From Deltaproteobacteria bacterium (GTDB lineage: Bacteria > UBA10199 > JACPAL01 > JACOUP01), in contig JACOUP010000001.1 of the NCBI GenBank assembly GCA_016177765.1, positions 1-64,000 on the forward strand: a stretch of DNA of 64,000 nt, in the 5' to 3' direction. Below, one piece after another: positions 1,570 to 29,221 of this stretch. The position numbers and the translations under genes were made by a program. Under the pieces are notes generated by a model. The model worked only from the letters and a program-made list of their open reading frames with translations, did no database searches and was not told where the DNA came from. The stretch's first letter is position 1. Each line of letters opens with the position of its first letter.

Positions 1570-3624
1570 TTACTGAGGGACACAGGAAAAATCACAGGAA
1601 AGACCGGCTGAAAAACAGGTGGTCAGGTAACTATTACAAATGACCGCCGGACTGAGATTGCTGGGATTGGCATCATCCTGATACACCATCACCTCATCCA
1701 TGAGTCCGTTAAAGACATTATCCACTGAACCACCGTCGCCGCCCCATGAACGAGAGGCCCCGATACGGGCCTCAGCAGGGGTGTCCGCACTTTCCGTCAG
1801 GGAGAGGGCATTCACCACAGGAATCACCTTCTGCGATTGCCCGTCAATATAAAGCCTGATACTGGAGACATCCACCAAGCGTGAACCGGCATAACTCATC
1901 GCAACATGGTGCCAGTTGGTGTCTGTTATCGTCGTCTCCGTCCTGCCCTCAATGTAACGGTTTGCGTTATTCTGGCTCCTTATCATAAAGTCTACCGTGT
2001 TGGCAGACCCATTGAGAACACTTTGACCCCCTGAAAGAATGGCAAAATTGTAACCCCGACCTGTCGGGTCTGTCATATCCATCTTGGAGAAAATAGTGTC
2101 GTCGTTGGGTGAATCGGCAGAATTACGCCTGACCCAGGACTCAATCATAAAAGAAGAACCAGTATCAAATTTTAGACGAGCCGCATTGCCAAGGTTAATA
2201 TAGTTACTCCGATCATCAAACGAAAGGGCCGATCCGCTGATACCGGGTGTCCGCAACAGCCCACTGATCAACTGACCATTAATCCCCCTGATCGAATCAA
2301 TAGCATCCCCAGACCCCTCATTAAAAGACCACCAGCTCACCACAGGCGCCGTCGTCGAAAAAGTGCGGGTGGAGGTGGCGTTGGAATTATCATTTGGAGT
2401 GACATTCAAACGAAATTTCTTGTTAACAGAACTAGCTCCAAGTTCATTCACATAATAACCTGTGGTAATTGATCCTAGTTGAGTAGCCTCTGTCCACATT
2501 CCAAGACCATCAGCAAAAATCTGATAACTCACTTGATAGGTTGAATCCGGATAGATCATCCTCCCCGCCGGGTCTTTCTCACCCCTCCATGCAAACAGGG
2601 CCTTGGTCGGGGGGAGTTTCATCCCCGGGGTGGGGAGGAGGATGATCGGGGAGCGAGGGTCGGGGCATGGTTCGACAAGCTCACCATGTCCGAAAAAGGT
2701 TCGACGACAATCCCGGCGAATCTCATCGACGGAGAGGGCGCGGTTGTAGATCGATACTTCATCCAACGCCCCCTTGAAAGAATTGGCCCCAACCCTCCGA
2801 CCGATCTCCGCCATCCCTGGAACGGTATTCCAACCCTTCTCCTCCTCAGAAATCAGCACCCCGTTCCAATAAATCCTGACCATCTTCCCATCGTAGGTGT
2901 AACCCAAAACACCTTGTGTCATTCCGGTCGTCACAGGGGTTGTATCGTTGTTGATACCAACCAAACGCACCGTCGGTGTCGAACAACCGCTCAGGTCAAT
3001 CCTGTTCATCCCATCATTCACCTCGGAACCGTACCAAAAGGGATTCCGATAGGCTTGGCAATCCCCACCGGCAATAGCCTCATCCCACCGGAACCACAAG
3101 AATACCGACCGTGACGAAGCACCGGTCGGAAAACCGTTGCTCGATAACGCCACATAATCACTCGTACCGTTAAACAAGAGCCCTTTGCCGGAAACCCCGC
3201 TGACCCATTGCGGCCCGGACAACAACCCGGTGTTCAAACCGGTGCTGTCCCTTGCCCCGGAACCGGAACCTTCCTCAAACCGCCACCAGCTCACAAGATT
3301 GTTATCCAAAATAGTCCCAATCCCCACCACCGGAGAAGAGGACAACCCCTGGTAATCAACCGCCTTGACCTCCATCCGGTAATCAGACTTGGCCCCCAAG
3401 GTGAGTGGAGTTACCATCTCCCCATAACCGGTCCGCTTGAGTTGACAAACGGAACGGTAATCCCCACCCCCCACCAAACGGTTTTCCGTCAGGTTCGAAC
3501 AGGTGATCACCTCACCCCCGTTCGACGTCACCGTCACTGTGTAACTCGCAAGGTCTTCATTGCCGTCCGGATCCGATCCGTCCCAGGCGATCGTAAAGTC
3601 ACCAGGCAAACGATTCCCCTCCAA
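1570..3624 (-). CDS. LamG-type surface protein, distal part of a frameshifted lipoprotein
   Basis: Contains an FN3-like segment (IAWDGSDPDGNEDL), a concanavalin/LamG domain starting LVSWWRFEEGSGSGARDSTG, a second FN3-like linker and a second LamG domain (VVSWWSFNEGSGDAIDS...). The order matches the distal halves of the four LamG lipoproteins at 30817-40401. The nominal TTG start is poor, and the frame stays open and protein-like upstream of it (TSSQVPVISNVRLEG). It is therefore best read as the continuation, in the -1 frame, of the lipoprotein ending at 3672. One copy of the GGTTCGACAAGC repeat is translated here as FGHGELVEP. Likely cell-surface carbohydrate or protein binding. Confidence 0.7.
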   Translation of the reverse strand: MEGNRLPGDFTIAWDGSDPDGNEDLASYTVTVTSNGGEVITCSNLTENRLVGGGDYRSVCQLKRTGYGEMVTPLTLGAKSDYRMEVKAVDYQGLSSSPVVGIGTILDNNLVSWWRFEEGSGSGARDSTGLNTGLLSGPQWVSGVSGKGLLFNGTSDYVALSSNGFPTGASSRSVFLWFRWDEAIAGGDCQAYRNPFWYGSEVNDGMNRIDLSGCSTPTVRLVGINNDTTPVTTGMTQGVLGYTYDGKMVRIYWNGVLISEEEKGWNTVPGMAEIGRRVGANSFKGALDEVSIYNRALSVDEIRRDCRRTFFGHGELVEPCPDPRSPIILLPTPGMKLPPTKALFAWRGEKDPAGRMIYPDSTYQVSYQIFADGLGMWTEATQLGSITTGYYVNELGASSVNKKFRLNVTPNDNSNATSTRTFSTTAPVVSWWSFNEGSGDAIDSIRGINGQLISGLLRTPGISGSALSFDDRSNYINLGNAARLKFDTGSSFMIESWVRRNSADSPNDDTIFSKMDMTDPTGRGYNFAILSGGQSVLNGSANTVDFMIRSQNNANRYIEGRTETTITDTNWHHVAMSYAGSRLVDVSSIRLYIDGQSQKVIPVVNALSLTESADTPAEARIGASRSWGGDGGSVDNVFNGLMDEVMVYQDDANPSNLSPAVICNSYLTTCFSAGLSCDFSCVPQ
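2669..2691. repeat. GGTTCGACAAGCTCACCATG repeat end
   Basis: Same 23-bp sequence as the left end of the hairpin element at 47067 and the copy at 12188. Translated on the minus strand as GHGELVE inside the LamG protein. Confidence 0.8.
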
Positions 3625-3671
3625 ACGAACATTGGAGATAACAGGAACCTGCGAACTGGTTCTCCTGAATT

Positions 3672-4763
3672 TTATCGGAACTCTCTCCTCATAAGCATTA
3701 TGTTTGAGTGAAGAAGATTGGCCAAAAGACGGGTCACCGAAGAATCCTGATCGGCTATCCCCAGCAAACGCTCCACCCCATTACCGATAAGTTTGACCGA
3801 AACCGCTTCCAGACCGGAAGGGTCATCCAGTTCCCAAATAAAGGAGGCAGGGCCGTTGATCTCCTGATCTTTCTGCAAATCCAACCGGACACGACTGGGC
3901 CCTTTGGTATCTTCGTTATTAAAGGCAGAAAAGGTGAAGGTGGTTTCCCCCACAAGACCGTACTTGTCTTTGACACGAACCTTAAAGGCCATCGTCCCGA
4001 CCAAATCCCCCACCACAAACCGGTCCGTCTCAATCAACAAAATCATCTGTTTCTTCTTCAAAATCTCGTCTGTTGGTGTCAAAACATGAATTCCATAGCT
4101 CGGGGAGACAACCAACATCTCTTTAATATCGAAAGGGAACGGCTTGTCCCCATCGATAACAGCCCTTATCAAAACTTCCGCATCCCCGGTCAAAGAATCA
4201 AAAAAGGTGGAACCGGGCTTGGGCAGGGAAACAGAGTTGTTTGTCAGAATATCCCCGCGCGTGGCGGAAAGAGAGGGACCCCCCTGGGGGATTGAATTCT
4301 TGGAATAAAGGTCACTCTTGTAAACATACTCCGCCAAATTCCCAAAACCATCCCCATCCAGGTCCAAACCGGGGGTCCCCTCGTAAACCGCCTCCCAGTT
4401 GGCCTCATCTCCCAAATAAGAAACATTCATCTCCTCCCCAACCGCCGTGAGATTCCTTCGCACCAAATGCTCCAGTTCTACCGTTTCCTTTGGTGAAATA
4501 TCCCCCTCATAAATCACCGTGACATCAAAGGTGGATCCGGTCGGAACCGTCACCGTCCCCCGAAAACTGTTCGTCTCCGGATCCAGCTCCATCTCGTGCC
4601 GCTCCTCCGGATCGGTAGAAACAACCGCATAAGCCTTTAACGGAATCCCCAAATCCAACAACGCCTGCGGAATGGCCGACTCAAACCCGGAATCACCGGA
4701 AGAACAGCTGATGAGGGAGAGGAAGAGGAAAAGGGGTATTAAGGAATAGAGGGTCTTTTTCAT
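3672..4763 (-). CDS. Lipoprotein, N-terminal half of frameshifted LamG surface protein
   Basis: Signal peptide MKKTLYSLIPLFLFLSLISC ends in a lipobox (LISC), so the protein is predicted lipid-anchored. The N-terminal ~120 residues have the same layout as the LamG lipoproteins at 30817-40401, although diverged. A calcium-type DLDGDGFGNLAEY motif (thrombospondin type 3 style) follows, then Ig-like strands. The ATG overlaps the upstream gene stop as ATGA, implying translational coupling. The frame ends in an unlikely tail (LHSNIMLMRREFR) just where the -1 frame becomes protein-like, so the gene is probably one ~1,040-residue lipoprotein interrupted between about 3672 and 3710. Confidence 0.75.
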   Translation of the reverse strand: MKKTLYSLIPLFLFLSLISCSSGDSGFESAIPQALLDLGIPLKAYAVVSTDPEERHEMELDPETNSFRGTVTVPTGSTFDVTVIYEGDISPKETVELEHLVRRNLTAVGEEMNVSYLGDEANWEAVYEGTPGLDLDGDGFGNLAEYVYKSDLYSKNSIPQGGPSLSATRGDILTNNSVSLPKPGSTFFDSLTGDAEVLIRAVIDGDKPFPFDIKEMLVVSPSYGIHVLTPTDEILKKKQMILLIETDRFVVGDLVGTMAFKVRVKDKYGLVGETTFTFSAFNNEDTKGPSRVRLDLQKDQEINGPASFIWELDDPSGLEAVSVKLIGNGVERLLGIADQDSSVTRLLANLLHSNIMLMRREFR

Positions 4764-5422
4764 CGTGAATTCCCAAAAACCGGTGAATCAATAGTGATAT
4801 CGGTGCCATCCCCGCCACCCCCACTCCCCGCCACCGCAAAACCGATCCCCATCCCAAGACCAGCCATCAAAACACCGCTCGCAATCCAGAAGATCGGCTT
4901 CTTGTAAAATGGTTTCCTTTCAGTGGTTCTTAACGCCAAAGGAGCTGGTATCGGCTCGGAGCGTTGTGGCCTCGCCGACGAGTCAAGGCGAGCCTGATCG
5001 ATCATGGTATTGGTGCGAGCCTCTTCGTAGGTCTTGATCATCCGGGGAGGGTAGAGCTTCGGGTCCGGACGGTAGCTCGGGTCCAACTGGACCACCTTCT
5101 CCAACCCCGTCACGGCAGACCTCCTGCGACCATCCGCCAGGTCAATCATCGCCATGAGAAGGGAGGCCTCAATAAATTGATCTCTGACCACTCCTTCCAG
5201 TTTCATGGAGGAAACAAGGGCCATCGCCTTCTCCGACTTCACCCGCGCCTTGGTCCATTCCATCTGGTAATAATGGTTCCGGGCCTCATGAATAAGCGTC
5301 GCTAAATCGCCGGATTCTGTGGGGATTGCAGGCCCAGCAAAAAGGGTAGGGGGGAAGAGGAGGGTCAGGACAAGCGGAATCAGGAGAAATCTGGAGAAAA
5401 AACCAAACCTTTTGCCGTCCAT
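4760..5422 (-). CDS. TPR-like envelope protein with C-terminal membrane anchor
   Basis: Signal segment (FFSRFLLIPLVLTLLFPPTLFAG), an alpha-helical TPR-like region with LEKVVQLDPSYRPDPKLYPPRM, then a C-terminal anchor KKPIFWIASGVLMAGLGMG followed by a Gly-rich end. The same anchor ends the PEGA protein at 29436-30806, so the two are paralogues, each just upstream of a LamG lipoprotein. I chose ATG 5422; the GTG at 5434 comes from an interspersed repeat. Likely works with the lipoprotein made by the overlapping gene. No enzymatic motif seen. Confidence 0.7.
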   Translation of the reverse strand: MDGKRFGFFSRFLLIPLVLTLLFPPTLFAGPAIPTESGDLATLIHEARNHYYQMEWTKARVKSEKAMALVSSMKLEGVVRDQFIEASLLMAMIDLADGRRRSAVTGLEKVVQLDPSYRPDPKLYPPRMIKTYEEARTNTMIDQARLDSSARPQRSEPIPAPLALRTTERKPFYKKPIFWIASGVLMAGLGMGIGFAVAGSGGGGDGTDITIDSPVFGNSR

Positions 5423-5426
5423 GGTC

Positions 5427-5464
5427 ACCCTCACCCCGACCCTCTCCCATCCAGGGAGAGGGGG
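5427..5464. repeat. CCCTCACCC-type repeat at gene start
   Basis: Covers the 5' edge of the TPR-like gene and provides the alternative GTG start at 5434. Confidence 0.65.
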
Positions 5465-5597: not shown

Positions 5598-6002
5598 TTA
5601 ATGCTTTAATCCTCCCCACGGTGTGTCAACGGATCGTTCCACTTTTCCCGTAGCAACTTTGCCCGGGGGGAGACATTCCGCCGTCTTCTTTTCTGACAGC
5701 CCGCCCAAACCCGGAATGGAAAGGGCTGTCTTCTCTTCCGTCTGGCTCTTGGTGGAGACCTTGTCATCCTTCAAAAGAAGGCACTGGTCCTTGCCGTAGT
5801 ACCAGGTGGCGTAGTTCCCCTCGTGCTGTTCTACCTTGCTGGGGCCGGATTCCATTGCCTTGACCACTTCCTGCGAGGTCATGCCGGGATAGACCAGGGC
5901 AAATTTTGAACCGGCACAGGCTCCGAGGCTCGCCGCCGTCAGCAGGACCGTCAGGATCTTCTTGATTCTTTCTTTTTCCTTCTTGTTGACCGGCTTATTC
6001 AT
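5598..6002 (-). CDS. BamE/SmpA-OmlA-like small lipoprotein
   Basis: The 134-residue product begins MNKPVNKKEKERIKKILTVLL and has a lipobox (SLGAC), so it is a predicted lipoprotein. The core YPGMTSQEVVKAMESGPSKV followed by ATWYYGKDQCLLLKDDKV matches the SmpA/OmlA fold signature (GMT-x-xEV-x8-GxP, then an aromatic strand and a V-strand). BamE helps assemble outer-membrane beta-barrels, but this fold occurs in many small lipoproteins, so that role is not proven. Start chosen at ATG 6002 because AAGGAG lies 7 nt upstream; an upstream GTG is part of a repeat. Third of three lipoproteins sharing one signal peptide. Confidence 0.65.
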   Translation of the reverse strand: MNKPVNKKEKERIKKILTVLLTAASLGACAGSKFALVYPGMTSQEVVKAMESGPSKVEQHEGNYATWYYGKDQCLLLKDDKVSTKSQTEEKTALSIPGLGGLSEKKTAECLPPGKVATGKVERSVDTPWGGLKH

Positions 6003-6015
6003 CGGATTCTCCTTT

Positions 6016-6062
6016 TTTCCCCTCACCCAACCCCCTCCCGAGATGGGAGAGGGAAGGGAGAG
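6016..6062. repeat. CCCTCACCC-type interspersed repeat
   Basis: CCCCTCACCCAACCCCCTCC with inverted arm GGGAGAGGGAAGGG, between two lipoprotein genes. The same repeat occupies the equivalent gap at 7035-7077. Confidence 0.7.
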
Positions 6063-6078
6063 CCAGGGAGTTCGTTTT

Positions 6079-7020
6079 TTACTTGGCTACGATGACATCA
6101 CCATTAATGACGGTATCACCGTTGTTGTTATTGCCATTGATGATTGTCACGCTGTTGTTATTGTTGCTGTTGGTCGTACTATTATCAATGACAGTGTTAT
6201 TAGAATTGATATTGGTATTATTATTGGAATTGATGGTGTTGTTGAAATTGCTGTTATTGTTTCCAGTATTGAACGTGATCTTGTCACGCCCCGCAGAACC
6301 GTCAGCATCAGATACAGAATTGGATTTCTCGCTATCGTCTTCTGATCCACAATTGCTCCCCTTCATGGAGAGATCGAAACAACTTCCGGATAGGGAACAA
6401 CTGACCTTTTCGCCACAGAGGGTGCCGTCGATATTGCCTTCGATTGAACAAGCGGTGGCAGAGGCATCAACCTTGAAATCATAGGTTAGCTCCCCTTCAC
6501 AGGTCCCGCTGATCTTGAGGGAGGCTGTCTCCGTAATGACAATCGCCACGTTATTGCTCGGCCCCTTGATCGTTCCCTGCTGGCCGACGGTTCCGGTCAG
6601 AAAGAACCCGGATTCGTCGACGTCGCTGGTGGACGCAGAATCGGCCATGGCACAACCGTCAAAGGTGATTGACTCATCCAGAGAAAGATCGACTGAATCT
6701 GCCCCCGCCTGCCCTTTGAGACTGCCGGTCGCCTTTGCCGATCCTTTCTGACAAGGAATGGTTTCGGAGGCGGTCTCATCGACCGTTGTCGTTGCCGTTT
6801 GAAGCGCCTGAAAGGCAGATGTGGATTGGCTTCCTTGAGAGGAGGTGGCACTAAAGAGTGCTGAAGTCACTCCCTTAACCGCCTTACCACTGACTGAACC
6901 GGATGATACCTGTTCGTTTTCCTCACCCCCACCACCGCAGGCGGCTAAACTCGACGCCGCTAGCAGGACCATCAGGATCTTTTTGATTCTTTCTTTTTCC
7001 TTCTTATTCATCTTCTTCAT
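6079..7020 (-). CDS. Lipoprotein with AGRDK motif and Asn-repeat tail
   Basis: Signal peptide MKKMNKKEKERIKKILMVLL with lipobox LAAC followed by a Gly run. Residues ~30-230 are a Cys-containing beta-rich domain shared with the next lipoprotein (shared words: DVDES, ACEG/TCEG, GTLCGE/GTICGE). At about residue 243 comes GSAGRDK, the motif found in the Asn-rich secreted proteins at 8230, 8988 and 26917. The last 66 residues carry about 27 Asn in NSNN-type repeats. It may be a membrane-anchored member, possibly a nucleator or cap, of the fibre system; this is inference. AAGGAG precedes ATG 7020. Confidence 0.75.
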   Translation of the reverse strand: MKKMNKKEKERIKKILMVLLAASSLAACGGGGEENEQVSSGSVSGKAVKGVTSALFSATSSQGSQSTSAFQALQTATTTVDETASETIPCQKGSAKATGSLKGQAGADSVDLSLDESITFDGCAMADSASTSDVDESGFFLTGTVGQQGTIKGPSNNVAIVITETASLKISGTCEGELTYDFKVDASATACSIEGNIDGTLCGEKVSCSLSGSCFDLSMKGSNCGSEDDSEKSNSVSDADGSAGRDKITFNTGNNNSNFNNTINSNNNTNINSNNTVIDNSTTNSNNNNSVTIINGNNNNGDTVINGDVIVAK

Positions 7021-7034
7021 TGGGTTCTCCTTTT

Positions 7035-7077
7035 TTCCCCTCACCCAACCCTCTCCCGAGATGGGAGAGGGAATGGG
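7035..7077. repeat. CCCTCACCC-type interspersed repeat
   Basis: CCCCTCACCCAACCCTCTCC with inverted arm GGGAGAGGGAATGGG in the gap between lipoprotein genes. Almost identical to 6016-6062, so the gap and signal-peptide region may have been copied together. Confidence 0.7.
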
Positions 7078-7089
7078 AGCAGGTAAAAA

Positions 7090-7821
7090 CTACTTTTTGC
7101 TATCGTCATCATCGTCGTCTTTTTTGTCTTTGGCTTTATCCTTGGCGTTCTCATCATCTTCCTCCCCAAACGTATCCTCAGAGAGGGATGGGTTGCCGCA
7201 GTTCCCGCTGACCTCAGAGTTAACCCTCTCCCCGCAGATGGTTCCCGAAACAGTGCCGGTACTGGTGCAAACTTTGTCCGAACCTTTTAAAGTCACCTCA
7301 AACTGCAAAGAGCCTTCACAGGCACCGCTGATCCTGATGTTACCGGTCTGGCTCACGCTAAAATAAGGATTTTCTTCCGAACCATTCACCTTAGCTTTTT
7401 CACCGATCGTGCCATCCAGGACAAATGTGGATTCGTCAACGTCCTTGGTAGAGGTCATGTTGGCCGGTGCACATTTGTTGAGAACAACATCACTCACGAC
7501 GTCCAGATTGACACTGGTGACCTCTTCCGATTGATCGTCCGTGGTGACCGAACCTTTCACGGACTGACTAACATCCGCAGATCCGGAGGAGCAGGGGAGG
7601 ACCACCTTCTCGCTCTGATCAAAGTTAGTCGTTAAGGCTTGCAGTTGAATATCCCCAGATGCCGAGTTCTGCATCACCACTGCCATAACCCCTTTGGCCG
7701 CCTTGACAGTCTCCTTGGAAGGACCATCACCTCCGCCGCAGGCGGCTAAACTTGATGCCGTCAGCAGGACCATCAGGATCTTTTTGATCTTTGTTTTTTC
7801 CTTCTTGTTCGTCTTCTTCAT
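7090..7821 (-). CDS. Lipoprotein, paralogue of the AGRDK lipoprotein, acidic/Lys tail
   Basis: Signal peptide MKKTNKKEKTKIKKILMVLL plus lipobox LAAC. The ~190-residue beta-rich Cys domain is paralogous to the one in the gene at 6079-7020 (shared TSTKDVDES/STSDVDES, GACEGSLQFEV/GTCEGELTYDF). In place of the Asn tail it ends in a charged Asp/Lys tract with six consecutive Asp. ATG 7821 follows AAGGAGAACCC. First gene of the minus-strand operon driven by the sigma-54 site at 7993-7977. Function unknown; predicted envelope lipoprotein. Confidence 0.7.
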   Translation of the reverse strand: MKKTNKKEKTKIKKILMVLLTASSLAACGGGDGPSKETVKAAKGVMAVVMQNSASGDIQLQALTTNFDQSEKVVLPCSSGSADVSQSVKGSVTTDDQSEEVTSVNLDVVSDVVLNKCAPANMTSTKDVDESTFVLDGTIGEKAKVNGSEENPYFSVSQTGNIRISGACEGSLQFEVTLKGSDKVCTSTGTVSGTICGERVNSEVSGNCGNPSLSEDTFGEEDDENAKDKAKDKKDDDDDDSKK

Positions 7822-7885
7822 TGGGTTCTCCTTTTTTCCTTCCAGCGATCGCTCCCCTCGTGCCGGTTGGTGGTTTTTAAATTTT

Positions 7886-7962
7886 GGCAGGTGTCTTTGT
7901 TCCCATCGCAAGGGGGAGCCCCGCTTTGGGAACTGACCGGATTTTGGTCAACGACACCTGCC
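7886..7962 (-). ncRNA. Candidate structured 5' UTR RNA, three-way junction
   Basis: Outer 10-bp helix GGCAGGTGTC (7886-7895) with GACACCTGCC (7953-7962). Inside lie a 7-bp helix GTTCCCA/TGGGAAC (7899-7905, 7927-7933) and, directly abutting, a 5-bp helix TGACC/GGTCA (7934-7938, 7946-7950). The predicted start of the minus-strand sigma-54 transcript is about 7966, so this would be the very 5' end of the lipoprotein mRNA. It matches no riboswitch core that I can recognise. Confidence 0.5.
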
Positions 7963-7976: not shown

Positions 7977-7993
7977 AGCAACCGGCGTGCCAA
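7977..7993 (-). promoter_or_regulatory. Sigma-54 promoter for the lipoprotein operon
   Basis: Minus strand TTGGCACGCCGGTTGCT, a full match to the TGGCAC-N5-TTGC consensus with GG-N10-GC spacing. Transcription would start near 7966 and read the lipoprotein genes at 7821 to 5598, possibly on to 1570. Confidence 0.8.
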
Positions 7994-8052: not shown

Positions 8053-8094
8053 ACGGTTCGAAAATCGAACCACGGTACGAAAATCGAACCGTTC
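8053..8094. promoter_or_regulatory. Twin palindromes, candidate shared activator site
   Basis: GGTTCGAAAATCGAACC (8056-8072) is a perfect inverted repeat. A near copy GGTACGAAAATCGAACC (8075-8091) has its centre 19 bp away, and the whole block is also bounded by AACGGTTCGA/TCGAACCGTT. It lies between two divergent sigma-54 promoters, 40-60 bp from each -24 element, the usual setting for enhancer-binding activator sites. Confidence 0.55.
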
Positions 8095-8133: not shown

Positions 8134-8150
8134 TTGGCACGCCTCTTGCT
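8134..8150 (+). promoter_or_regulatory. Sigma-54 promoter for CsgG cassette 1
   Basis: TTGGCACGCCTCTTGCT, a full -24/-12 consensus (GG-N10-GC). Predicted start is near 8161, leaving a ~69-nt leader before ATG 8230. Confidence 0.85.
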
Positions 8151-8229
8151 AAAGGAAGACTTGTGACGATTTTAAAAACAACAACGGGAGCTCTGAAAAA
8201 GAGACCCAAAATAAAAAGGAGGAAGTGAG

Positions 8230-8946
8230 ATGAAGAGACAAGTCATAGGGACACTAGCTGTGACCCTGTTAACAGTAGGGATAGGAGGGACAGGCTGGAG
8301 TCAGACCAACATCAGCCCTTCTGCCAGCCTTAATCCCTCTGCTAACGTTAGCCCTTCCGCCAGCCTCAATCCTACTGCCAACATTAATCCTTCCCTTAGC
8401 GCCAGTGCCTCCGCCGGTAGTATTAACCCTTCCCTCAATTTTGGTTGGTCCTCCACTGAGGCGAATCAACAGGCTGGCCATCACAACATTACGCAGACAG
8501 GGAAAGGCTCTGCCGGCCGGGACAAATACGAAATGGGAGACAATTCCCGAGTCAGCAATTCGAATAATATCCGCACTGACTCGAATAACACGACCAATAC
8601 TGATTCCAATAATCGTTTCACCGATTACAGCATGAAAAATAGTGGCAATGACAGCCGACAGTGGAACGACAACGGTGTCCATATTGACAACAGGGATTTC
8701 AGCAACAACGCGAATCTGAGCGACAACCGTATTGATAACAGAAATTTCAGCGACAACCGTCAATGGAGTGCCGCGAATAGTTTTAATACGACAGATAGCC
8801 ACAACTTCACTGATAATCGAACCCTGTACATGACAGGTCCGAACGCCGCTGACGGCCGAGGCACGAACAGTAACATGAACGACGTTCGAAACAGGAACAT
8901 GAATAACAGTGGTCAGGGAGGACAAGCGGAAGGGTGGAATTGGTAA
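8230..8946 (+). CDS. Asn-rich secreted AGRDK protein, candidate fibre subunit
   Basis: The 238-residue product has a signal peptide MKRQVIGTLAVTLLTVGIGG ending near GWSQ. Residues ~26-75 are an eight-residue-type repeat NPSANVSPSASL. Then EANQQAGHHNITQTGKGSAGRDKYEMGDN leads into Asn/Ser/Asp/Arg repeats (SNNIRTDSNN, then DNRNFSDNR). The QxGxxNxxQxG spacing recalls curlin, but this is not a canonical curlin repeat. It lacks the C-terminal GNFSGSNNQINN domain of the other two AGRD proteins. AGGAGG lies 7 nt before ATG. First gene of the cassette that includes a CsgG channel, so secretion to the surface is likely. Confidence 0.75.
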   Translation: MKRQVIGTLAVTLLTVGIGGTGWSQTNISPSASLNPSANVSPSASLNPTANINPSLSASASAGSINPSLNFGWSSTEANQQAGHHNITQTGKGSAGRDKYEMGDNSRVSNSNNIRTDSNNTTNTDSNNRFTDYSMKNSGNDSRQWNDNGVHIDNRDFSNNANLSDNRIDNRNFSDNRQWSAANSFNTTDSHNFTDNRTLYMTGPNAADGRGTNSNMNDVRNRNMNNSGQGGQAEGWNW

Positions 8947-8987
8947 ATTCAATGAGAAACCAACAAACAGAAAAGGAGAAGACTCAA

Positions 8988-9683
8988 ATGAAAAAGACAA
9001 TAAAAGGGTGCTTCACCCAAGGCGCACTGGCTGTCGCCCTGTTAACAGCCGGGATCGGAAGTCAAGCATGGGGATGGGGTTTCGATGTCAGTGCCTCCTC
9101 TAGTGAAGCGAACCGACAGGGTGGGGCCGGGAACATACAGCAGACCGGTAGAAATTCTGCCGGTAGAGACAAATACGAAATGGGAGATAATGGTACAGTC
9201 AGTAACTCCAACAACACCAATACTAACTCTAATAACAAGATAAACACTAATTCCAATAACCGTTTCTACGATAATAGCGTCAAAGATAGCAACAACGATA
9301 ACCGGCAGTGGAACGACAGCCGTTCCTACAGCGACAGTCGAGACTTGAGCGATAATAGAAACTTGAGCGACAACCGGATCGATGGCCGGAATTTGAGCGA
9401 CAACCGTGTCGATGCCCGTCAAGTACATACGACAGACAGCCATAACTACACGGATGGTCGCAGTATGATTGATGCACGTCAGACGCATGATACCAAGTAC
9501 ATGGATATCAAGGCCGGCGATAATTCCGCCATCGTTGCCGGGAACTATGCGCCGAGCCTCGGTGTTGGAAAAATCGAGATGGGTAATTTCTCCGGTTCCA
9601 ATAACCAGATCAACAACTCCCTCTCCGGCTATTTCGGGGTGGGAAATGTCATCAACAGCAACAACGTACCGGCAAGTAAATAA
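8988..9683 (+). CDS. Asn-rich secreted AGRDK protein, candidate fibre subunit
   Basis: Start ATG 8988 follows AAAAGGAGAAG. Signal peptide MKKTIKGCFTQGALAVALLTAG. The mature part begins with EANRQGGAGNIQQTGRNSAGRDKYEMGDN, followed by NSNNTNTNSNNK repeats and then a heptad-like run of DNRNLSDNRIDGRNLSDNR. The C-terminal ~60 residues (AGDNSAIVAGNY, MGNFSGSNNQINNSLSGYFGVGN) are shared with the protein at 26917-27447. The signal peptide contains a five-residue insertion GCFTQ relative to the preceding gene, exactly one 15-bp palindromic unit. Likely the main surface-fibre component. Confidence 0.75.
   Translation: MKKTIKGCFTQGALAVALLTAGIGSQAWGWGFDVSASSSEANRQGGAGNIQQTGRNSAGRDKYEMGDNGTVSNSNNTNTNSNNKINTNSNNRFYDNSVKDSNNDNRQWNDSRSYSDSRDLSDNRNLSDNRIDGRNLSDNRVDARQVHTTDSHNYTDGRSMIDARQTHDTKYMDIKAGDNSAIVAGNYAPSLGVGKIEMGNFSGSNNQINNSLSGYFGVGNVINSNNVPASK
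9006..9020. repeat. 15-bp palindromic unit in signal-peptide codons
   Basis: GGGTGCTTCACCCAA, read as G-C-F-T-Q. It is absent at the aligned position of the paralogous gene at 8230. Confidence 0.85.
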
Positions 9684-9701
9684 TCCATGGAGAGAACTGT
9701 C

Positions 9702-10049
9702 ATGAAAACAAAACGGAACAAAATCCTGAAAAAAGCGGTCCCTCTCCTGGCCCTCGGGTTGGTGCTGGGTCTACCGCTTACGACCGAGGCGGCCTGTCTG
9801 AGGGACTGCGCCCAAGATAACGCCCAAGACAGCGGAAGAGCGGGGAATTCCTACTCCGGCTACGGGACGAACAGTTACCGGGACCGCAGTCCTACCTTCG
9901 GCGACAACAACACCGCCATTCTCGGCGATGTGAACATCCATGTCGGGCATGACAATGTAACGATCGGCGGTTTTGGCGGCAATGCCACCGGCAACTTTGT
10001 GGACACCTCCATCAATTCGACCATTATCATGGGGAATTTGAAACAATGA
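9702..10049 (+). CDS. Small secreted GDNNTA-family protein
   Basis: The 115-residue product has a signal peptide MKTKRNKILKKAVPLLALGL ending near TTEAA. The C-terminal half FGDNNTAILGDVNIHVGHDN, GGFGGNATGNFVDTSINSTI is a short-period beta-strand pattern nearly conserved in the paralogue at 26485-26832. GGAGAG precedes ATG 9702; the in-frame ATG at 9687 lacks a site. Overlaps the next gene by ATGA. Could be a minor fibre component or accessory factor comparable in position to CsgE/CsgF, but no sequence match to those is visible. Confidence 0.7.
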   Translation: MKTKRNKILKKAVPLLALGLVLGLPLTTEAACLRDCAQDNAQDSGRAGNSYSGYGTNSYRDRSPTFGDNNTAILGDVNIHVGHDNVTIGGFGGNATGNFVDTSINSTIIMGNLKQ

Positions 10050-10438
10050 AAAATAGCCACCCCCTGCATTTAGCGGTTCTTTTGCTTGTTTCTCTGGAGC
10101 TTTGCCTGGTGTCAACGGCGATGGCGGCGCAACAGACAGAGCAGGGTCCGTCGCTAGCGGCCGTGATCAATGATATGCGGATGAAACAACAGGCGGAGGA
10201 GCGAAACTCCGTGGTCCGGGTCATCCAACCAATGATGACCCCGCAGAGAGACGTTTGTTCCCCGATTCAACAGGCCCGACAGCGGCTTCGCGATTTGGCA
10301 ACAAAAGACAAAAAGTCAGTAGGGAATCTTAATGTGGAGGCAGGGCATGGGGAGGTGAAGGTCGATGGGAACAGTGGGACCGTGAATAACAGTGTCAACG
10401 TACAGGTGGTGAACCCTAATGAGAAAAATTGCCTATAG
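10046..10438 (+). CDS. Small secreted protein ending NPNEKNCL
   Basis: The 130-residue product has a signal peptide ending at STAMA. The middle contains VCSPIQQARQRLRDL. The C-terminus is a beta-type repeat NVEAGHGEVKVDGNSGTVNN then NSVNVQVVNPNEKNCL, almost identical to the end of the paralogue at 26111-26488. Start overlaps the previous stop (ATGA), and its last codons overlap the CsgG gene by 20 nt, so the three are translationally coupled. The conserved Cys two residues from the C-terminus is unusual. Role unknown; likely an accessory or minor subunit of the exported fibre. Confidence 0.7.
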   Translation: MKNSHPLHLAVLLLVSLELCLVSTAMAAQQTEQGPSLAAVINDMRMKQQAEERNSVVRVIQPMMTPQRDVCSPIQQARQRLRDLATKDKKSVGNLNVEAGHGEVKVDGNSGTVNNSVNVQVVNPNEKNCL

Positions 10439-11465
10439 CAAAAAACATTTGAGCGGAGGACTGGTCCCCCTCGCCACCCGTTCGCTCCTAGCGATCTTCT
10501 TGCTGATCGGCTCATTTGATCTGTCCCACGCCGCCGGTCTCTCCAAATCCGGACCGAAGTCCCGTGTGGCCGTCTCCGAATTCGGCGCGACCGACCGGTT
10601 TGCGGCGGCGTACGGCGGTTGGAACATCGGCGGGGGGTTGGCGGCCCAGCTCGTCACCTCCTTAATAGACTCCGGCCAGGTGCTGGTTGTTGAGAGGGCG
10701 ATCCTCTCCAAGGTGCTGATCGAACAGGAGTTGGGGCAAAACCGGCTTTCTTCGCCGATGACCCAAACCCCTGCCGGCCAGCTTTTGGGGGTGGATTACC
10801 TGATCGTCGGCCAGGTTACCGAATTTGAAGAGCGCCAGATGGGGGGCGGCGCGGCGCTCTCGATCATGAAATCGTTTGGCCCCCGGATCAGCGGCGATGC
10901 GGTGGCGGCCCATGTCGGGATCGACCTCCGGGTGGTGGATACCCGGACCGGTGAGATCCTCCATTCCCACCGGGCGCAGGGGAGGGCCTGGGAAAAGGCG
11001 GTCGGAACCAAGATTGACTACAAGTTCATTGAATTCGGCGGCGAGTTCTTCCACAAGACACCGCTCGGCAAGGCGACACGCCGGGCGATTGATGACGCGC
11101 TGGACTTCATCCTCAAGATCATCGGCAAGAGGACGGAGGAGTTCCAGTGGCTGGCCCGTGTCATCGACGGGGACGGAAACAACGTCTATTTGGATGCCGG
11201 CCGGACCGCCAACATCGAACCGGGCGACCGGTTTGTGGTCAGCGCCGTGCAAAAGGTGCTGACCGACCCGGAAACCAACGAGGTGCTCGGGCTTGTTGAG
11301 CAAAAACTGGGGCTTGTTGAGGCGGTCGAGGTGGAAACGAAATACACCCGGGCGGTCGTTCTTGGGAATTTCAGGCCGAGAATCGGCAACCTGGTCCGGT
11401 TTGCCCACGAAAAAAAGAGCGCGATGAACGGTTCCCCTTCAAGCTACAAGATCATGGAGGACTAA
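10419..11465 (+). CDS. CsgG-family outer-membrane secretion channel with C-terminal barrel
   Basis: The 348-residue product has a signal peptide ending near SHAAG. CsgG hallmarks follow: RVAVSEFGATDRF, GLAAQLVTSLIDSGQVLVVERAILSKVL, LLGVDYLIVGQVTEFE, and VGIDLRVVDTRTGEILHSHRAQG. CsgG forms the nonameric channel that exports curli subunits; HfaB of Caulobacter is a relative. Two differences from E. coli CsgG are visible: no lipobox Cys after the signal peptide, and an extra ~110 residues (VYLDAGRTANIEPGDRFVV) resembling the small barrel at the end of FlgT-type proteins. Context of upstream Asn-rich secreted proteins supports a fibre-export role. Confidence 0.85.
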   Translation: MRKIAYSKKHLSGGLVPLATRSLLAIFLLIGSFDLSHAAGLSKSGPKSRVAVSEFGATDRFAAAYGGWNIGGGLAAQLVTSLIDSGQVLVVERAILSKVLIEQELGQNRLSSPMTQTPAGQLLGVDYLIVGQVTEFEERQMGGGAALSIMKSFGPRISGDAVAAHVGIDLRVVDTRTGEILHSHRAQGRAWEKAVGTKIDYKFIEFGGEFFHKTPLGKATRRAIDDALDFILKIIGKRTEEFQWLARVIDGDGNNVYLDAGRTANIEPGDRFVVSAVQKVLTDPETNEVLGLVEQKLGLVEAVEVETKYTRAVVLGNFRPRIGNLVRFAHEKKSAMNGSPSSYKIMED

Positions 11466-11469
11466 AAAA

Positions 11470-12186
11470 ATGGGCGAGACAGTCGTTTTTGGGCAACATC
11501 AAAAGATGGTTCCACCGTTAAAACTGGTGGTCGTTCCTGGCCGGTCAATGGGGTCGGGTGAAGCACCCTTGGGTGGAACACCCCTGGAGTTTCTGGTCTT
11601 CTTCGGCCGACAGAGTTACGGCCGCGGACCGGACAACGAGATCATCCTCGACCACCCGACCGTCTCCAAGAGGCATGGGGTGATCGACTATCACAAGGAA
11701 GGGGAGGTGATCTTTTACGACCTCTCCTCACTCAACGGGATTTCTTTTAACGGAAAAAAGAAACCGGTTGTTTCGATCAAAAAGGGGCAGTCCATCCAGG
11801 TGGGGGGGATTTATTTAAAACTGGTGGGGGGGGATGATCATTACGGGGCGCGGCCGGCAACGCCCCTCCGATGGATGAAATCAAAAAAACAATGGATCGC
11901 CGTAACGGCCGTAATTTCTCTGATGAGTGGGTTCTCGTTTTTGGCCTGGTCTCAAATGGAAACAAGGAAGGAAAACTCGGCCCCGTTGGCGGAATTTGTG
12001 ACGCCGGGGGCCTCCGCACTCCCCCTCACCCGTCCGCCAGAGCTAGCGCTCCCCCTCTCCCCGACCCTCCCCCTCCCACAGGGACTTCCTTCGGTCGCAA
12101 AGGGGGAGGGAAGTAAGGTACGAAGCTATCCGAAGCAGAGAATGGTTTCGATCCTGCCGCGGGAATCTCAGAGGAGGTATCGATGA
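11470..12186 (+). CDS. FHA-domain membrane protein
   Basis: Residues ~35-120 form an FHA phosphothreonine-binding domain: FGRQSYGRGPDNEIIL, VSKRHGVI, YDLSSLNGISFNGKK. A single membrane segment follows (QWIAVTAVISLMSGFSFLAW), then a tail. By topology the FHA domain would be cytoplasmic and the tail periplasmic. Nearby PEGA Ser/Thr kinases are candidate partners. Two 15-bp units (11556-11585) and a CCCTC repeat (12016-12115) are translated within it, the latter supplying most of the C-terminal tail. The paralogue at 24518-25117 has lost the FHA core. GGAGGAC precedes ATG 11470. Confidence 0.75.
   Translation: MGETVVFGQHQKMVPPLKLVVVPGRSMGSGEAPLGGTPLEFLVFFGRQSYGRGPDNEIILDHPTVSKRHGVIDYHKEGEVIFYDLSSLNGISFNGKKKPVVSIKKGQSIQVGGIYLKLVGGDDHYGARPATPLRWMKSKKQWIAVTAVISLMSGFSFLAWSQMETRKENSAPLAEFVTPGASALPLTRPPELALPLSPTLPLPQGLPSVAKGEGSKVRSYPKQRMVSILPRESQRRYR
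11556..11585. repeat. Two tandem 15-bp palindromic units
   Basis: GGGTGAAGCACCCTT then GGGTGGAACACCCCT, in frame at the start of the FHA domain ([10 protein letters not shown]). Confidence 0.8.
12016..12115. repeat. CCCTCACCC-type repeat inside CDS
   Basis: CCCCCTCACCC, CTCCCCGACCCTCCCCCTCC and inverted arm AAAGGGGGAGGGAAG, read in frame as the Pro/Leu-rich tail of the FHA protein. Confidence 0.7.
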
Positions 12187-12983
12187 TGGTTCGACAGGCT
12201 CACCATGTCCAAAAAACCCTGATCCTCGCCTTCTGTCTCTTATTCACAGGCTGTGCCTCGATGGGGCGTTCGCCGCTCCAGACCGCCGTTGCCGATGAGA
12301 TGCTGGAGGCCAAAAAGATGATCCGGGTGGGGCAGTATCGGGAGGCGGTCGACCAATTGAACATGATTCTCCAGATGAACCCCAATGACGAACAGGCCTA
12401 CTTCCTGCGCGGCGTCGCCCACCAGAGTCTCGAAGAGTTTCCTGCCGCTGTCCAGGACTATGAAACGGTGATCAAGAAAAATCCAAGGTCGGCCAAGACG
12501 TATTACAACCTCGGGATGATCTACGCCCATAAACTGGATGACCCACAGCGGGCCCTTGTCAATCTGGACCGATTTCTTTCACTGGAACCGAACCACCCTC
12601 AGGCGGGGGATACCGCCAGTTTGATGATGACCCTTGACGAAAGGGGGCAGGAAACAAGCCCCGAAGAATCTCAATTGAAAGAACACCTCTCTCGCTTGTC
12701 CTCAACGGAAAACTTTTTGGAACGGCGCGGGAAACTGGCCCCCCTGATGCAACTTTACCCCGACTCGGCCGTCTTGCACTATTTGATGGGACAAACCTAC
12801 GAACGGGAGGGGAGGAACGACGAGGCGATCCGCTACTACCAATCGGCCCTTGAGCTCCGGCCCACTGACGCCAACACCCAACAGGCGCTTGGAAATCTCC
12901 TGATCTATGAGGGAAAAAACGCGGAGGGACAGGGGCACCTCATGAAGGCCAAGTTGTTTGAAACTCCCTCTAGCAAAGGGTAA
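12183..12983 (+). CDS. TPR lipoprotein of CsgG cassette 1
   Basis: Lipobox FTGC in a signal peptide. TPR units follow: AKKMIRVGQYREAVDQLNMI, AYFLRGVAHQSLEEFPAAVQ, TYYNLGMIYAHKLDDPQRAL and a C-terminal pair around LHYLMGQTYEREGRNDEAIR. Predicted periplasm-facing lipoprotein scaffold, analogous in position to the TPR module of HfaB-type systems. The N-terminus MMVRQAHHVQK is encoded by a GGTTCGACAGGCTCACCATG repeat, so this mobile sequence now supplies the start. GAGGAGG precedes the ATG, which overlaps the FHA gene stop. Paralogue of 23722-24516. Confidence 0.8.
   Translation: MMVRQAHHVQKTLILAFCLLFTGCASMGRSPLQTAVADEMLEAKKMIRVGQYREAVDQLNMILQMNPNDEQAYFLRGVAHQSLEEFPAAVQDYETVIKKNPRSAKTYYNLGMIYAHKLDDPQRALVNLDRFLSLEPNHPQAGDTASLMMTLDERGQETSPEESQLKEHLSRLSSTENFLERRGKLAPLMQLYPDSAVLHYLMGQTYEREGRNDEAIRYYQSALELRPTDANTQQALGNLLIYEGKNAEGQGHLMKAKLFETPSSKG
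12188..12210. repeat. GGTTCGACAGGCTCACCATG repeat end
   Basis: One base different from the copies at 2669 and 47067. Forms codons 2-10 of the TPR lipoprotein. Confidence 0.8.
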
Positions 12984-22342: not shown

Positions 22343-23725
22343 ATGGTCAACATCCATTTCAGTGAAGAGACCGCCCATATTGAAGAACCCTCCATCCGGC
22401 TGGTCTCCCTCAAAGAAAACAGCAACAGACTCACCACGGAAACCCTAAAACTGGAAATCCGGGAACCCTCCGGGAAAAACAGGCAGGTCCTGATGGACCA
22501 CTCCCCGTTCCGGATCGGCAAGGGAGATCACAATGATGTCATGATTGACGATCCGTACGTTTCCGACCAGCATTGCAAGATCCGGTTGGTGGAAAAAGGC
22601 TGGCTCCTCAAGGATATGGCGAGCACCAATGGGACTTACCTGAACGGCAAAAAGGTCGAAGAGGGCTTTGTCGAATCTGGCGACAAATTACAGGTGGGGC
22701 AGTCTGAAATTTGTCTTCAGGTTGTCAAAAAAGAGGAGACTGTCCTGCCGGAAAAAGAAGAAGAGTTTTGCGGCCTGATCGGAGGGAGTGAAAAGATGCG
22801 CCAGTTGTACGCCTTGCTCCGGCGAGTGGGCCCGGCCGATGCGAGTGTCCTGATCCAGGGAGAGACCGGGTCAGGGAAAGAACTGGTCGCCAGGGGGATT
22901 CATCAGTTGAGCCCGTTTGCGGGAGGACCATTCGTGGCGATCAACTGTGGGGCCATTTCTCCGGAATTGATTGAGTCTGAACTGTTCGGCCATGAAAAAG
23001 GGGCCTTCACCGGCGCCGTGGCCAGCCGGAAGGGGGCCTTCGAAGCGGCAGAAAAGGGGACACTTTTTTTAGATGAAGTCGGCGAACTCCCCTTGAGACT
23101 CCAGCCCAAACTCCTGCGGGTTCTGGAACAAAAAGCGGTAAAAAGAGTCGGGGGGAATCAGGAGATCCCTGTTTCCACCCGCGTCATCGCCGCAACCCAC
23201 AAAAACCTCAAGACCGAGGTCAAGAAAGGAAATTTCCGGGAGGACCTTTTTTTCCGTCTCCACATCGTCCCTCTTTTCATCCCTTCCTTGAGGGAACGAC
23301 GGGAAGATATCCCGCTGTTGACCGACCACTTTCTCAAAGAGTTGGGCCATTCCAAAATCCGGATCTCGGAAAAAGCGAAGTTAAAACTTTCCAACTACGA
23401 CTGGCCCGGAAATGTCCGTGAGCTCAAACATCTCCTGACCCGCGCCTGTCTGCTCGCCAAGGGTGGTCCACCCAGGGGTGAGTCACCCAAGGGTGGTTCA
23501 CCCAGGGGCGATTCGTCGAAGGGGAACCGTATTGAGGAAGAAGATCTCCAGTTTTCCGATGGGGAGTCTGCGGCAGGTCCAACGTCACTGGAATCTGCAG
23601 AAAAGGAGACCATCCTCAGCAAGTTAAACCAGTCCGGCTGGAACAAGACCCAAACGGCGCAGGCGTTGGGGATCGCCAAGTCCACCCTTTTCAAAAAAAT
23701 CCGGGAATATAATCTCAAGCCTTAA
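22343..23725 (+). CDS. FHA-domain sigma-54-dependent activator
   Basis: The 460-residue product has an FHA domain at ~50-120 (NDVMIDDPYVSDQHCKI, MASTNGTYLNGKK), an AAA+ domain with Walker A GETGSGKE near 173, the sigma-54 contact loop GAFTGA near 220 and LFLDEVGE (Walker B), and a Fis-type helix-turn-helix at the C-terminus (WNKTQTAQALGIAKSTLFKK). Activity is likely gated by binding a phosphothreonine made by a Ser/Thr kinase. Four tandem 15-bp units (23461-23520) insert 20 residues between AAA+ and HTH. Last gene of the recG-thrC run; candidate activator of the -24/-12 promoters in this window. Confidence 0.92.
   Translation: MVNIHFSEETAHIEEPSIRLVSLKENSNRLTTETLKLEIREPSGKNRQVLMDHSPFRIGKGDHNDVMIDDPYVSDQHCKIRLVEKGWLLKDMASTNGTYLNGKKVEEGFVESGDKLQVGQSEICLQVVKKEETVLPEKEEEFCGLIGGSEKMRQLYALLRRVGPADASVLIQGETGSGKELVARGIHQLSPFAGGPFVAINCGAISPELIESELFGHEKGAFTGAVASRKGAFEAAEKGTLFLDEVGELPLRLQPKLLRVLEQKAVKRVGGNQEIPVSTRVIAATHKNLKTEVKKGNFREDLFFRLHIVPLFIPSLRERREDIPLLTDHFLKELGHSKIRISEKAKLKLSNYDWPGNVRELKHLLTRACLLAKGGPPRGESPKGGSPRGDSSKGNRIEEEDLQFSDGESAAGPTSLESAEKETILSKLNQSGWNKTQTAQALGIAKSTLFKKIREYNLKP
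23461..23520. repeat. Four exact tandem 15-bp palindromic units
   Basis: Units begin at 23461, 23476, 23491 and 23506. The first three match GGGTG-N5-CACCCAR variants and the fourth is degenerate (GGGCGATTCGTCGAA). Read as GPPRGESPKGGSPRGDSSKG. Confidence 0.9.
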
Positions 23726-24516
23726 TTAACGCCCGGCCCGTTCGGATCATACAATTTGGCCTTGAGAAGGTGGATTTCACCCGCTTTCCCGTCCCTCTTT
23801 TTGACAAACAGGTTGCCAAGACTCCGGTGGCAAGGGGCGCAGGTCGGCTGAATCTCAAGCGCCGATTGGTAGTAACGAACCGCCTCCGATTCGTTCCCCT
23901 CAATTTCGAAGGTTTGTCCAATCATATAATAAAGGATAGAGGCCTCGGGATAATCCTTGAGCAGTGCTGTGAAATGCCGGCGTCGTTCGGCTATCTCTTC
24001 AATCTGTAATCCCTCAGTCACAGCCATTTGAATCTCAGAATCTTCAAAATAGTTTTTTGCAGAATCCAAAGAACAGATAATCTTGGCAACGGAAAAAGCC
24101 TCTTCATGCTGTGGCGCCAGAGAGAGAAATTGATCCAAATGACGGATCGCCGAGGAGGGTTCGTTTAACCGGAAGGCATAGATCATTCCCAGGTTGTAAT
24201 GCGCCTTCTGGGCCGCAGGATTTCTCTTCAAAACAGCCTCATAATCCTGAATAGCAAGATCTGGTTTTTCGAGCTTTTGATAGGCACGGGCACGGGCTAA
24301 AAGGGCTTGCTCGTTTTTTGGATCCATTTCCAGAAGGGTAGAAATTTCATCGACGGCTTGGCGGTAATTCCCAGCCTGAATGAGCCGCTCAGCCTCTTCT
24401 AAATCATCCGAATAGGCACGACTAAAAAAAGCCGGCCTCGAAGAGATGGCACAGGCTGTCAAACCAGCAAGGGTTATCAACCCAAAGACAAAAATAAGGG
24501 CGCGAAGTTTTTTCAT
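23722..24516 (-). CDS. TPR lipoprotein of CsgG cassette 2
   Basis: The 264-residue product has a signal peptide with lipobox LTAC, then TPR units: LIQAGNYRQAVDEISTLLEM, ALLARARAYQKLEKPDLAIQ, AHYNLGMIYAFRLNEPSSAI, and a C-terminal pair LYYMIGQTFEIEGNESEAVR. Order and motifs match the TPR lipoprotein at 12183-12983 (shared LGMIYA, LDxFLSL, HLLKAKL/HLMKAKL). Unlike that copy, it has a plain signal peptide without the repeat-derived start. Its stop overlaps the stop of the convergent activator gene by 4 bp. Confidence 0.8.
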   Translation of the reverse strand: MKKLRALIFVFGLITLAGLTACAISSRPAFFSRAYSDDLEEAERLIQAGNYRQAVDEISTLLEMDPKNEQALLARARAYQKLEKPDLAIQDYEAVLKRNPAAQKAHYNLGMIYAFRLNEPSSAIRHLDQFLSLAPQHEEAFSVAKIICSLDSAKNYFEDSEIQMAVTEGLQIEEIAERRRHFTALLKDYPEASILYYMIGQTFEIEGNESEAVRYYQSALEIQPTCAPCHRSLGNLFVKKRDGKAGEIHLLKAKLYDPNGPGVN

Positions 24517-24517
24517 A

Positions 24518-25117
24518 TCATCTCCATTGGGCCAATAATCCTTCCGCTTGAGCCCGAAGGGGGGAATCAGACGGACTGATTTTTATTACCATCTCCAAAA
24601 GTTCTTCCGCGCGTGTGGGGTAAATCGCACGCGTCATCACCGCTTCCTCAAAAAGACGGGAGGGGTGATTCACCTGAGCTTGATCTTGCCGGGGCGATTC
24701 GCCCAGGTCGGACCGGTCTTCGCCCTCAGTTGTTGTTCTCAAGTCTTGTGAAGAATTAACCGAGGAACGGATAGTCTTTTTGGGGAGTCTTCCTTGCATG
24801 AGGGGCATGGGGGAGAGCTGTTTTACCGCCTCTTCCGTCACAAATTCCGAAAGAGGTGGAGGTGCTGGTGTTTTTAAATGATTTTTAACAATAAAAACAA
24901 GGGAACCGGCCAGAAGAACGATTGAAAGGAATAATCGGTATCTTCTCATAAGTATCCATTGAGAAGAAATTTTTTCCCCCAGCCGAGAAACAAAGTGGGC
25001 TCGCCTCGCTGAAGCTACGTCAAAACGGGTCTTCTCATCATCAACCAATACCAGCTTGAGAAAAACCGATCCCACCTGGATAATCTGTCCCTTTTTGATC
25101 TGAACCACTTCGTTCAT
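24518..25117 (-). CDS. Membrane protein, truncated paralogue lacking the FHA core
   Basis: The 199-residue product begins MNEVVQIKKGQIIQVGSVFLKL, matching only the last strand of the FHA domain of the 11470 protein (VVSIKKGQSIQVGGIYLKL). The preceding GR...SxxH...NG core is missing, and there is no room for it because the CsgG gene stops 3 bp upstream. A membrane segment follows (YRLFLSIVLLAGSLVFIV) and a periplasmic tail (LSEFVTEEAVKQL). It keeps the same slot between CsgG and TPR genes. Phosphothreonine binding should be lost; the tail may still function. Confidence 0.7.
   Translation of the reverse strand: MNEVVQIKKGQIIQVGSVFLKLVLVDDEKTRFDVASARRAHFVSRLGEKISSQWILMRRYRLFLSIVLLAGSLVFIVKNHLKTPAPPPLSEFVTEEAVKQLSPMPLMQGRLPKKTIRSSVNSSQDLRTTTEGEDRSDLGESPRQDQAQVNHPSRLFEEAVMTRAIYPTRAEELLEMVIKISPSDSPLRAQAEGLLAQWR
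24663..24706. repeat. Two separated 15-bp palindromic units
   Basis: GGGTGATTCACCTGA at 24663-24677 and GGGCGATTCGCCCAG at 24692-24706, both inside the truncated FHA paralogue (read as VNHP and GESP). Confidence 0.7.
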
Positions 25118-26130: not shown

Positions 26131-26488
26131 TGGGATTCACAATTTGTACGTTGACGCTGTTGTTCACAACGCCATCATTGCTATCAATCGCCACATCGCC
26201 GTGGCCGGCTGTCACATCCACGCTTCCAACCTTTTTATTCTGATCATTATCTGGCAGATCCCTCAGCCTCTGGCGCGCCTGCTGGATAGGAGAACAGACA
26301 TTTTCCATCTGCAAGGGAACCGGTTGTATAATCCGGAGCGGTTTTTCTTCCTGCTCCTGCTTTTGCCTCATAGCCATGAGGGCATCCAGTTGCGAAGGGG
26401 CCTTCTCGGGCGGGGGAACCGCCAGAGCCGTAAAAACAGGCTGAATCAAAAAGACGGAGACAAAAACGAGGGGATAAAATTTCTTCAT
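26111..26488 (-). CDS. Small secreted protein ending NPNEKNCL, copy 2
   Basis: The 125-residue product has a signal peptide ending near TALA, shared VCSPIQQARQRLRDLP, and a nearly identical C-terminus (DVTAGHGDVAIDSNDGVVNN then NSVNVQIVNPNEKNCL) to the 10046-10438 protein. Strong conservation of the end, including the penultimate Cys, against a diverged middle suggests a functional C-terminal motif. ATGA overlap with the upstream gene, 20-nt overlap with the CsgG gene. Confidence 0.7.
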   Translation of the reverse strand: MKKFYPLVFVSVFLIQPVFTALAVPPPEKAPSQLDALMAMRQKQEQEEKPLRIIQPVPLQMENVCSPIQQARQRLRDLPDNDQNKKVGSVDVTAGHGDVAIDSNDGVVNNSVNVQIVNPNEKNCL

Positions 26489-29085: not shown

Positions 29086-29132
29086 AAAGGGTCCTTCTAA
29101 CAAAGCGACTGAAAAAAAGCTATAGACTTCAA

Positions 29133-29174
29133 ACCGACCGATTGAGAGAGGGGGACCGACCGATTTCGAGAGGG
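29133..29174. promoter_or_regulatory. Direct repeats, candidate activator sites
   Basis: ACCGACCGATTGAGAGAGGG at 29133 and ACCGACCGATTTCGAGAGGG at 29155, offset 22 bp (about two helical turns), ending 48 bp before the -24 element on the plus strand. Confidence 0.5.
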
Positions 29175-29221
29175 TACTTCTCGCCAAAACGAATTAAACC
29201 CCACCCCAGCACCAAAAACAG

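Follow-up and report, generated by a model that had tools for sequence, protein, structure and literature searches.

Gene content of the cassette and its second copy

The window, by which we mean the whole stretch of 64,000 nucleotides analysed here, carries at positions 8230 to 12983 of its plus strand a compact operon of seven genes (cassette A) with a perfect sigma-54 site upstream. The first two genes encode Asn-rich secreted proteins, Asn1 (8230-8946; 18% N) and Asn2 (8988-9683). They are followed by genes for two small secreted proteins, s3 (9687-10049) and s4 (10046-10438), a CsgG-family protein (10419-11465), a protein with an FHA domain and a TM helix (11470-12186), and a TPR lipoprotein with the lipobox LLFTGC (12183-12983). 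All seven open reading frames and their order, as given in a first-pass annotation of the sequence, were confirmed, and so were the three gene overlaps it had listed: ATGA at 10046, 20 nt at 10419-10438, and ATGA at 12183. Pfam recognizes the products of genes 5-7 (CsgG, E 2.5e-31; FHA, 1.4e-12; TPR, 1.1e-23) and returns no match for those of genes 1-4. An Rfam scan of the window gave no RNA families.

A second copy (cassette B), overlooked in the first-pass annotation, lies on the minus strand of the same window (27447-23722). Its gene order is Asn, s3, s4, CsgG, FHA remnant, and TPR lipoprotein. The Asn-rich protein (26917-27447) has the C-terminal module described below, and the identities to the cassette A counterparts are 42% for s3 (26485-26832), 54% for s4 (26111-26488), 72% for CsgG (25120-26130), and 42% for the TPR lipoprotein (23722-24516). 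The FHA protein (24518-25117) keeps the TM helix and has lost nearly all of its FHA domain, because the gene begins within the last strands of that domain. A sigma-54 site with one mismatch precedes the cassette on the same strand (27552-27537). Cassette B is flanked on one side by a plus-strand gene for a protein in which Pfam finds an FHA domain, a sigma-54 AAA+ activator domain, and an HTH (22343-23725), a relative of which occurs in the cassette locus of genome G005 (L063:7023-8303). On the other side is a minus-strand gene for a Ser/Thr protein kinase (27640-29187; Pfam Pkinase, 6.6e-41), with relatives beside the cassettes of G005 (L063) and G043 (L066). Another gene for an FHA and sigma-54 AAA+ activator protein is found at 40406-41695.

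Conservation across the class

When a profile built from both CsgG proteins of the window was used as query, seven other class genomes proved to contain close relatives (E below 1e-100). The core Asn-s3-s4-CsgG-TPR is present in constant order at ten loci in eight of the 46 class genomes, a count that includes a G030 cassette in which CsgG and TPR are broken, a G001 cassette whose contig stops before the TPR gene, and s3 genes of G040 and G001 that were located by reading the gap. s3 is present in exactly those eight of the 46 genomes that bear a close CsgG, and s4 in the same eight of 385 genomes, plus two marginal matches. The recurrence of gene order and promoter type in the second copy of the window and in seven other genomes is beyond chance. 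It had been proposed that the CsgG-family gene belongs to a cassette with dedicated secreted proteins that are not curlins, a view that Asn-rich homologues lying away from csgG in other genomes would contradict. We looked for such homologues, and the secreted proteins adjoin csgG at every homologous locus.

Other parts of the earlier description hold for cassette A or its nearest relatives only. Two Asn-rich proteins are found in cassette A alone, every other locus having one; Asn1 is the extra copy. Likewise, the motif SAGRDKYEMGDN is found in both Asn-rich proteins but is local to cassette A, and the conserved feature is instead the C-terminal module. SAGRD as a defining motif was rejected, being restricted to family f1 (G000, the genome of the window, and G001). 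The FHA and TPR proteins had both been counted as parts of the system. The TPR lipoprotein is indeed a core component, but the FHA protein is confined to family f1, where it occurs also in the G001 cassette L067, is truncated in copy B, and is absent from the cassettes of the other relatives; it is therefore accessory. Genes for an FHA activator and a kinase lie directly downstream of the cassette in G005, and a kinase gene lies upstream in G043.

Identity to cassette A is 58-78% for CsgG and about 30-58% for s3 and s4, the difference expected between a channel and its cargo. In the CsgG tree, cassette A groups with one G001 copy, and the order to which the window belongs stands apart from the rest of the class, a topology that would fit vertical inheritance with an ancient duplication.

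A shared C-terminal module in the secreted proteins

The C-terminal 50 or so residues of Asn, s3, and s4 form a common module, roughly GDxNIxxGHxxVxIxGxxGxxNxxVDxSVxxxxxxG, which indicates that these cargo-like proteins are paralogous, a relationship not noted in the first-pass annotation. The match between the s3 and Asn profiles, which involves Asn2 in cassette A, has an E value of 7.2e-11 and that between s3 and s4 one of 3.5e-7, while the direct s4-Asn comparison is weak (0.0036). In 100 column shuffles the observed scores were never reached, and the scores of reversed profiles were far lower. When HMMs of each family were run against all open reading frames of the window, the matches were reciprocal and confined to cassette members, and the s3 HMM also recovered members of the Asn and s4 families from other genomes. 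Some of the module alignments contain the very proteins matched, and the comparison between families is the cleanest evidence.

Each family has features of its own. In s3 a conserved CLxxC stands just behind the signal peptide, and the module of the cassette A protein follows the pattern GDVNIxVGHxxxxI..S..STIILG. In s4 a charged N-terminal half precedes the module and the final cysteine is conserved; the 20-nt overlap of its gene with csgG recurs in several loci. Asn2 carries the module and is a candidate for the major subunit, and the module has been lost from Asn1. Searches of s3, s4, and Asn against Pfam and NCBIfam at lax thresholds gave only scattered chance matches, and a PDB profile search with s3 gave nothing. 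AlphaFold2 predicts no confident fold for s3 (pLDDT 50), a result that would be compatible with an unfolded export substrate and that may merely reflect an alignment of ten sequences.

The possibility that curlin repeats are hidden in these proteins was considered and rejected. The pattern QxGxxN occurs at most once per protein and only in Asn1, Asn2, one s3, and one s4, and its single occurrences in Asn1 and Asn2 are not conserved in relatives. PF07012 gave no match above cut-off in the eight cassette genomes.

The CsgG-family protein and its TPR partner

The CsgG protein of cassette A scores 109 bits against PF03783 (cut-off 20.8) and matches the PDB CsgG sequence by profile at 1.7e-5. The E. 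coli CsgG is a lipoprotein. Here, none of nine CsgG homologues has a lipobox, and all eight TPR proteins have one. TPR lipoproteins such as PilF are pilots for secretins, and by analogy the TPR lipoprotein may have taken over the anchoring or piloting of CsgG, which makes it a candidate pilotin or periplasmic scaffold.

The structure of the CsgG protein was modelled with low confidence (mean pLDDT 62). The model contains long strands at 127-141, 160-174, and 179-194, the positions of the membrane hairpins of CsgG; in the second hairpin the prediction lacks the latter of the two strands, and a simple test of hydrophobicity alternation gave mixed results. In fold comparisons FlgT ranks first (3w1e, E 4e-16), followed by CsgG, and PelC is matched as well. 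Since FlgT is the top match, a FlgT- or PelC-like ring is a serious rival to a channel. The CsgG-family protein would then be no exporter, but a periplasmic ring tied to the TPR lipoprotein that stabilizes another envelope machine, and Asn, s3, and s4 would decorate the ring. FlgT of the flagellar H-ring has, like the protein here, a CsgG-like middle domain and an FlgT_C-like domain, the latter being C-terminal in the cassette protein, and the missing lipid anchor also fits a ring. PelC belongs to the same fold class, forms rings, and is paired with a TPR domain in PelB; PelC rings bind TPR domains (PMC12141448). However, PelC is a lipoprotein and PelB holds a barrel, whereas in the cassette it is the TPR protein that is the lipoprotein, and it has no barrel. 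By sequence, the FlgT domains stay below their cut-offs (FlgT_M, 24.7 of 31.2 bits; FlgT_C, 14.6 of 27), and FlgT_M falls far short of the 109 bits for CsgG. Both membrane hairpins of E. coli CsgG have matching regions of nearly full length here, and a 3-residue indel among the homologues sits at the presumed tip of the first hairpin. No flagellar genes were recognized beside the cassettes in the loci that were read, and Pel genes are not found there either. We regard the ring as unlikely on balance.

Comparison with curli and holdfast anchor systems

The likeness to curli lies in a CsgG-family protein adjoining Asn/Gly-rich secreted proteins and in the presence of more than one related subunit; in curli, CsgG is required for export. 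The differences are several. The CsgG here is not acylated, bears the additional FlgT_C-like domain, and is invariably accompanied by a TPR lipoprotein, control is of the sigma-54 type, and curlin repeats, CsgE, and CsgF were not found. The lack of CsgE and CsgF, noted at first for the one locus, extends to all eight cassette-bearing genomes, in a search whose E. coli control was positive. True curli systems account for only 171 of 601 PF03783 hits, so CsgG alone is not diagnostic of curli (PMC3521004).

HfaABD, the holdfast anchor of Caulobacter, resembles the cassette in another way. It too pairs a CsgG-family protein (HfaB) with a small number of dedicated secreted proteins and lacks CsgE and CsgF, and HfaB carries HfaA and HfaD to the cell surface (PMC6707917). 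The cassette could accordingly serve an anchor rather than a fibre, with CsgG exporting short surface proteins to fasten a polysaccharide or another adhesin to the outer membrane. The NCBIfam HfaB model is a better match than E. coli CsgG, albeit far under its cut-off (NF037935, 31.8 of 300 bits), and some neighbours in G000 are LamG-type secreted proteins. However, no polysaccharide locus was seen adjoining the cassette in relatives, the neighbours vary between genomes, no cargo protein has an NCBIfam or Pfam match to HfaA or HfaD, and the three partners here, unlike those of HfaB, are mutually paralogous and accompanied by a TPR lipoprotein. We regard an anchor in place of a fibre as unlikely, much like the ring. 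The cassette appears to be a variety of CsgG-type system that would work like curli or Hfa, and is not a curli system. A literature search of incomplete coverage did not turn up any earlier account of CsgG combined with partners of this kind in a cassette.

Promoter sites and probable control by sigma-54

The first-pass annotation had called the operon sigma-54-driven, and the comparison bears this out. The cassette A site, TGGCACGCCTCTTGCT (8135-8150, plus strand), fits TGGCACG-N4-TTGCT without mismatch, and sigma-54-like -24/-12 sites with 0-2 mismatches lie 31-89 bp ahead of the Asn start codon at all ten loci. Such sites occur in at most 1.4% of random 150-bp stretches from the same loci. 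Genome-wide, the pattern with up to one mismatch is found 33 times, compared with 4 in reversed controls. Many of the genes behind these sites have N-termini resembling signal peptides or lipoboxes (judged by eye and uncounted).

Two further elements had been overlooked upstream of cassette A. One is a divergent perfect site, TGGCACGCCGGTTGCT (7977-7992, minus strand, 0 mismatches), upstream of two paralogous lipoprotein genes (7090-7911 and 6079-7044). The other is a pair of palindromes, GGTTCGAAAATCGAACC and GGTACGAAAATCGAACC, of 17 bp each, which lie between the two divergent promoters (8055-8090, with members at 8055 and 8074, 19 bp apart). The palindrome is found at 12 sites genome-wide and at none in the reversed control. 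The sites are often paired and close to sigma-54 sites, which makes the palindromes good candidates for sites at which a sigma-54 activator binds, and the pair at 8055-8090 is a candidate enhancer (UAS) common to both promoters.

Elsewhere in G000 (loci L117-L122) the palindrome occurs at C2:115755/115775, C2:131429/131448, C8:481349, C8:774460, C8:1330436, and C10:3488/3507. At these places, with sigma-54-like sites nearby, it precedes genes for a metallo-beta-lactamase lipoprotein, a ComM/YifB-like protein, Y1 (IS200-like) transposases, and surface proteins. The recurring palindrome may serve as an activator site; alternatively, it may be a REP-like element associated with the transposases.

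The rpoN gene is present in the six other cassette genomes but was not found in the G000 and G001 assemblies, although sigma-54 sites and activators are plentiful in both. In order-mates pyrG adjoins rpoN, and G000 has no full pyrG match, which makes an assembly gap at rpoN likely. In G001, pyrG is present and rpoN is not beside it. The linkage of FHA activators and a Ser/Thr kinase to the cassettes suggests phosphorylation-dependent control.

Proposed mechanism

We propose, at a probability of roughly one half, that the cassette specifies CsgG-type export across the outer membrane and assembly of three secreted proteins that are paralogous, largely unfolded, and rich in Asn and Gly. The cassette probably encodes an export system of a new variety, for surface fibres or surface anchors. 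Asn, s3, and s4 would cross the inner membrane via Sec and leave the cell through a channel formed by a CsgG oligomer that is not acylated, and their common, beta-prone C-terminal module would join them outside. Asn would serve as the principal structural component and s3 as a minor or nucleating subunit, and s4, co-translated with CsgG, would be the coupler that holds the assembly to the channel. Fibres, first suggested from the composition and context of these proteins, may be the product. The TPR lipoprotein would stand in for the lipid anchor that CsgG lacks, in outer-membrane targeting or as a scaffold, and transcription would be of the sigma-54 type.

A more specific version is offered tentatively, as a possibility that we would not yet favour. 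It holds that the system is an undescribed class of CsgG-dependent surface polymer from an uncultured class of bacteria, with a non-acylated CsgG channel that a dedicated TPR lipoprotein takes to the outer membrane, three exported paralogous subunits that are not curlins and that have the roles given above, and control by sigma-54, FHA proteins, and a kinase. It is very improbable that Asn, s3, and s4 form no joint structure and are degenerate envelope proteins that evolve fast and are united only by their operon: the Asn proteins are highly divergent and of low complexity, Asn1 has no module and the FHA protein of copy B is truncated, but all three genes, their order, and the common module are kept in every homologous cassette.

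Most CsgG-family proteins are found outside curli operons (PMC3521004), which leaves the question of what they carry. In the conserved cassette CsgG is coupled to a recognizable family of paralogous cargo and to a lipoprotein, so that this question can be put to a direct test. If the proposal is correct, it would show how CsgG can dispense with CsgE, CsgF, and a lipid anchor of its own, and it would add a type of surface fibre or anchor of interest to biofilm biology and pore engineering.

Neighbouring genes and repeats

In the minus-strand region upstream of cassette A (5598-7911), three genes encode lipoproteins whose N-termini are almost the same (KKEKxxIKKILMVLLxAASSLAAC). One of these proteins (6079-7044) has a C-terminal Asn-rich tail that includes SAGRD, and the Asn profile does not match it. 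Farther along, at 1570-5434, is a paralogous set of surface genes comprising a TPR-like gene (4760), one of unknown type (3672), and a LamG gene (1570). The set is duplicated elsewhere in the genome (L118 and L122) and also adjoins the G001 cassette (L067). Finally, short Pro/Gly-rich insertions of SPKG or GDSPKGG are seen within unrelated open reading frames at 12000-12120, 23395-23480, and 29800-30700, suggesting an interspersed short repeat.
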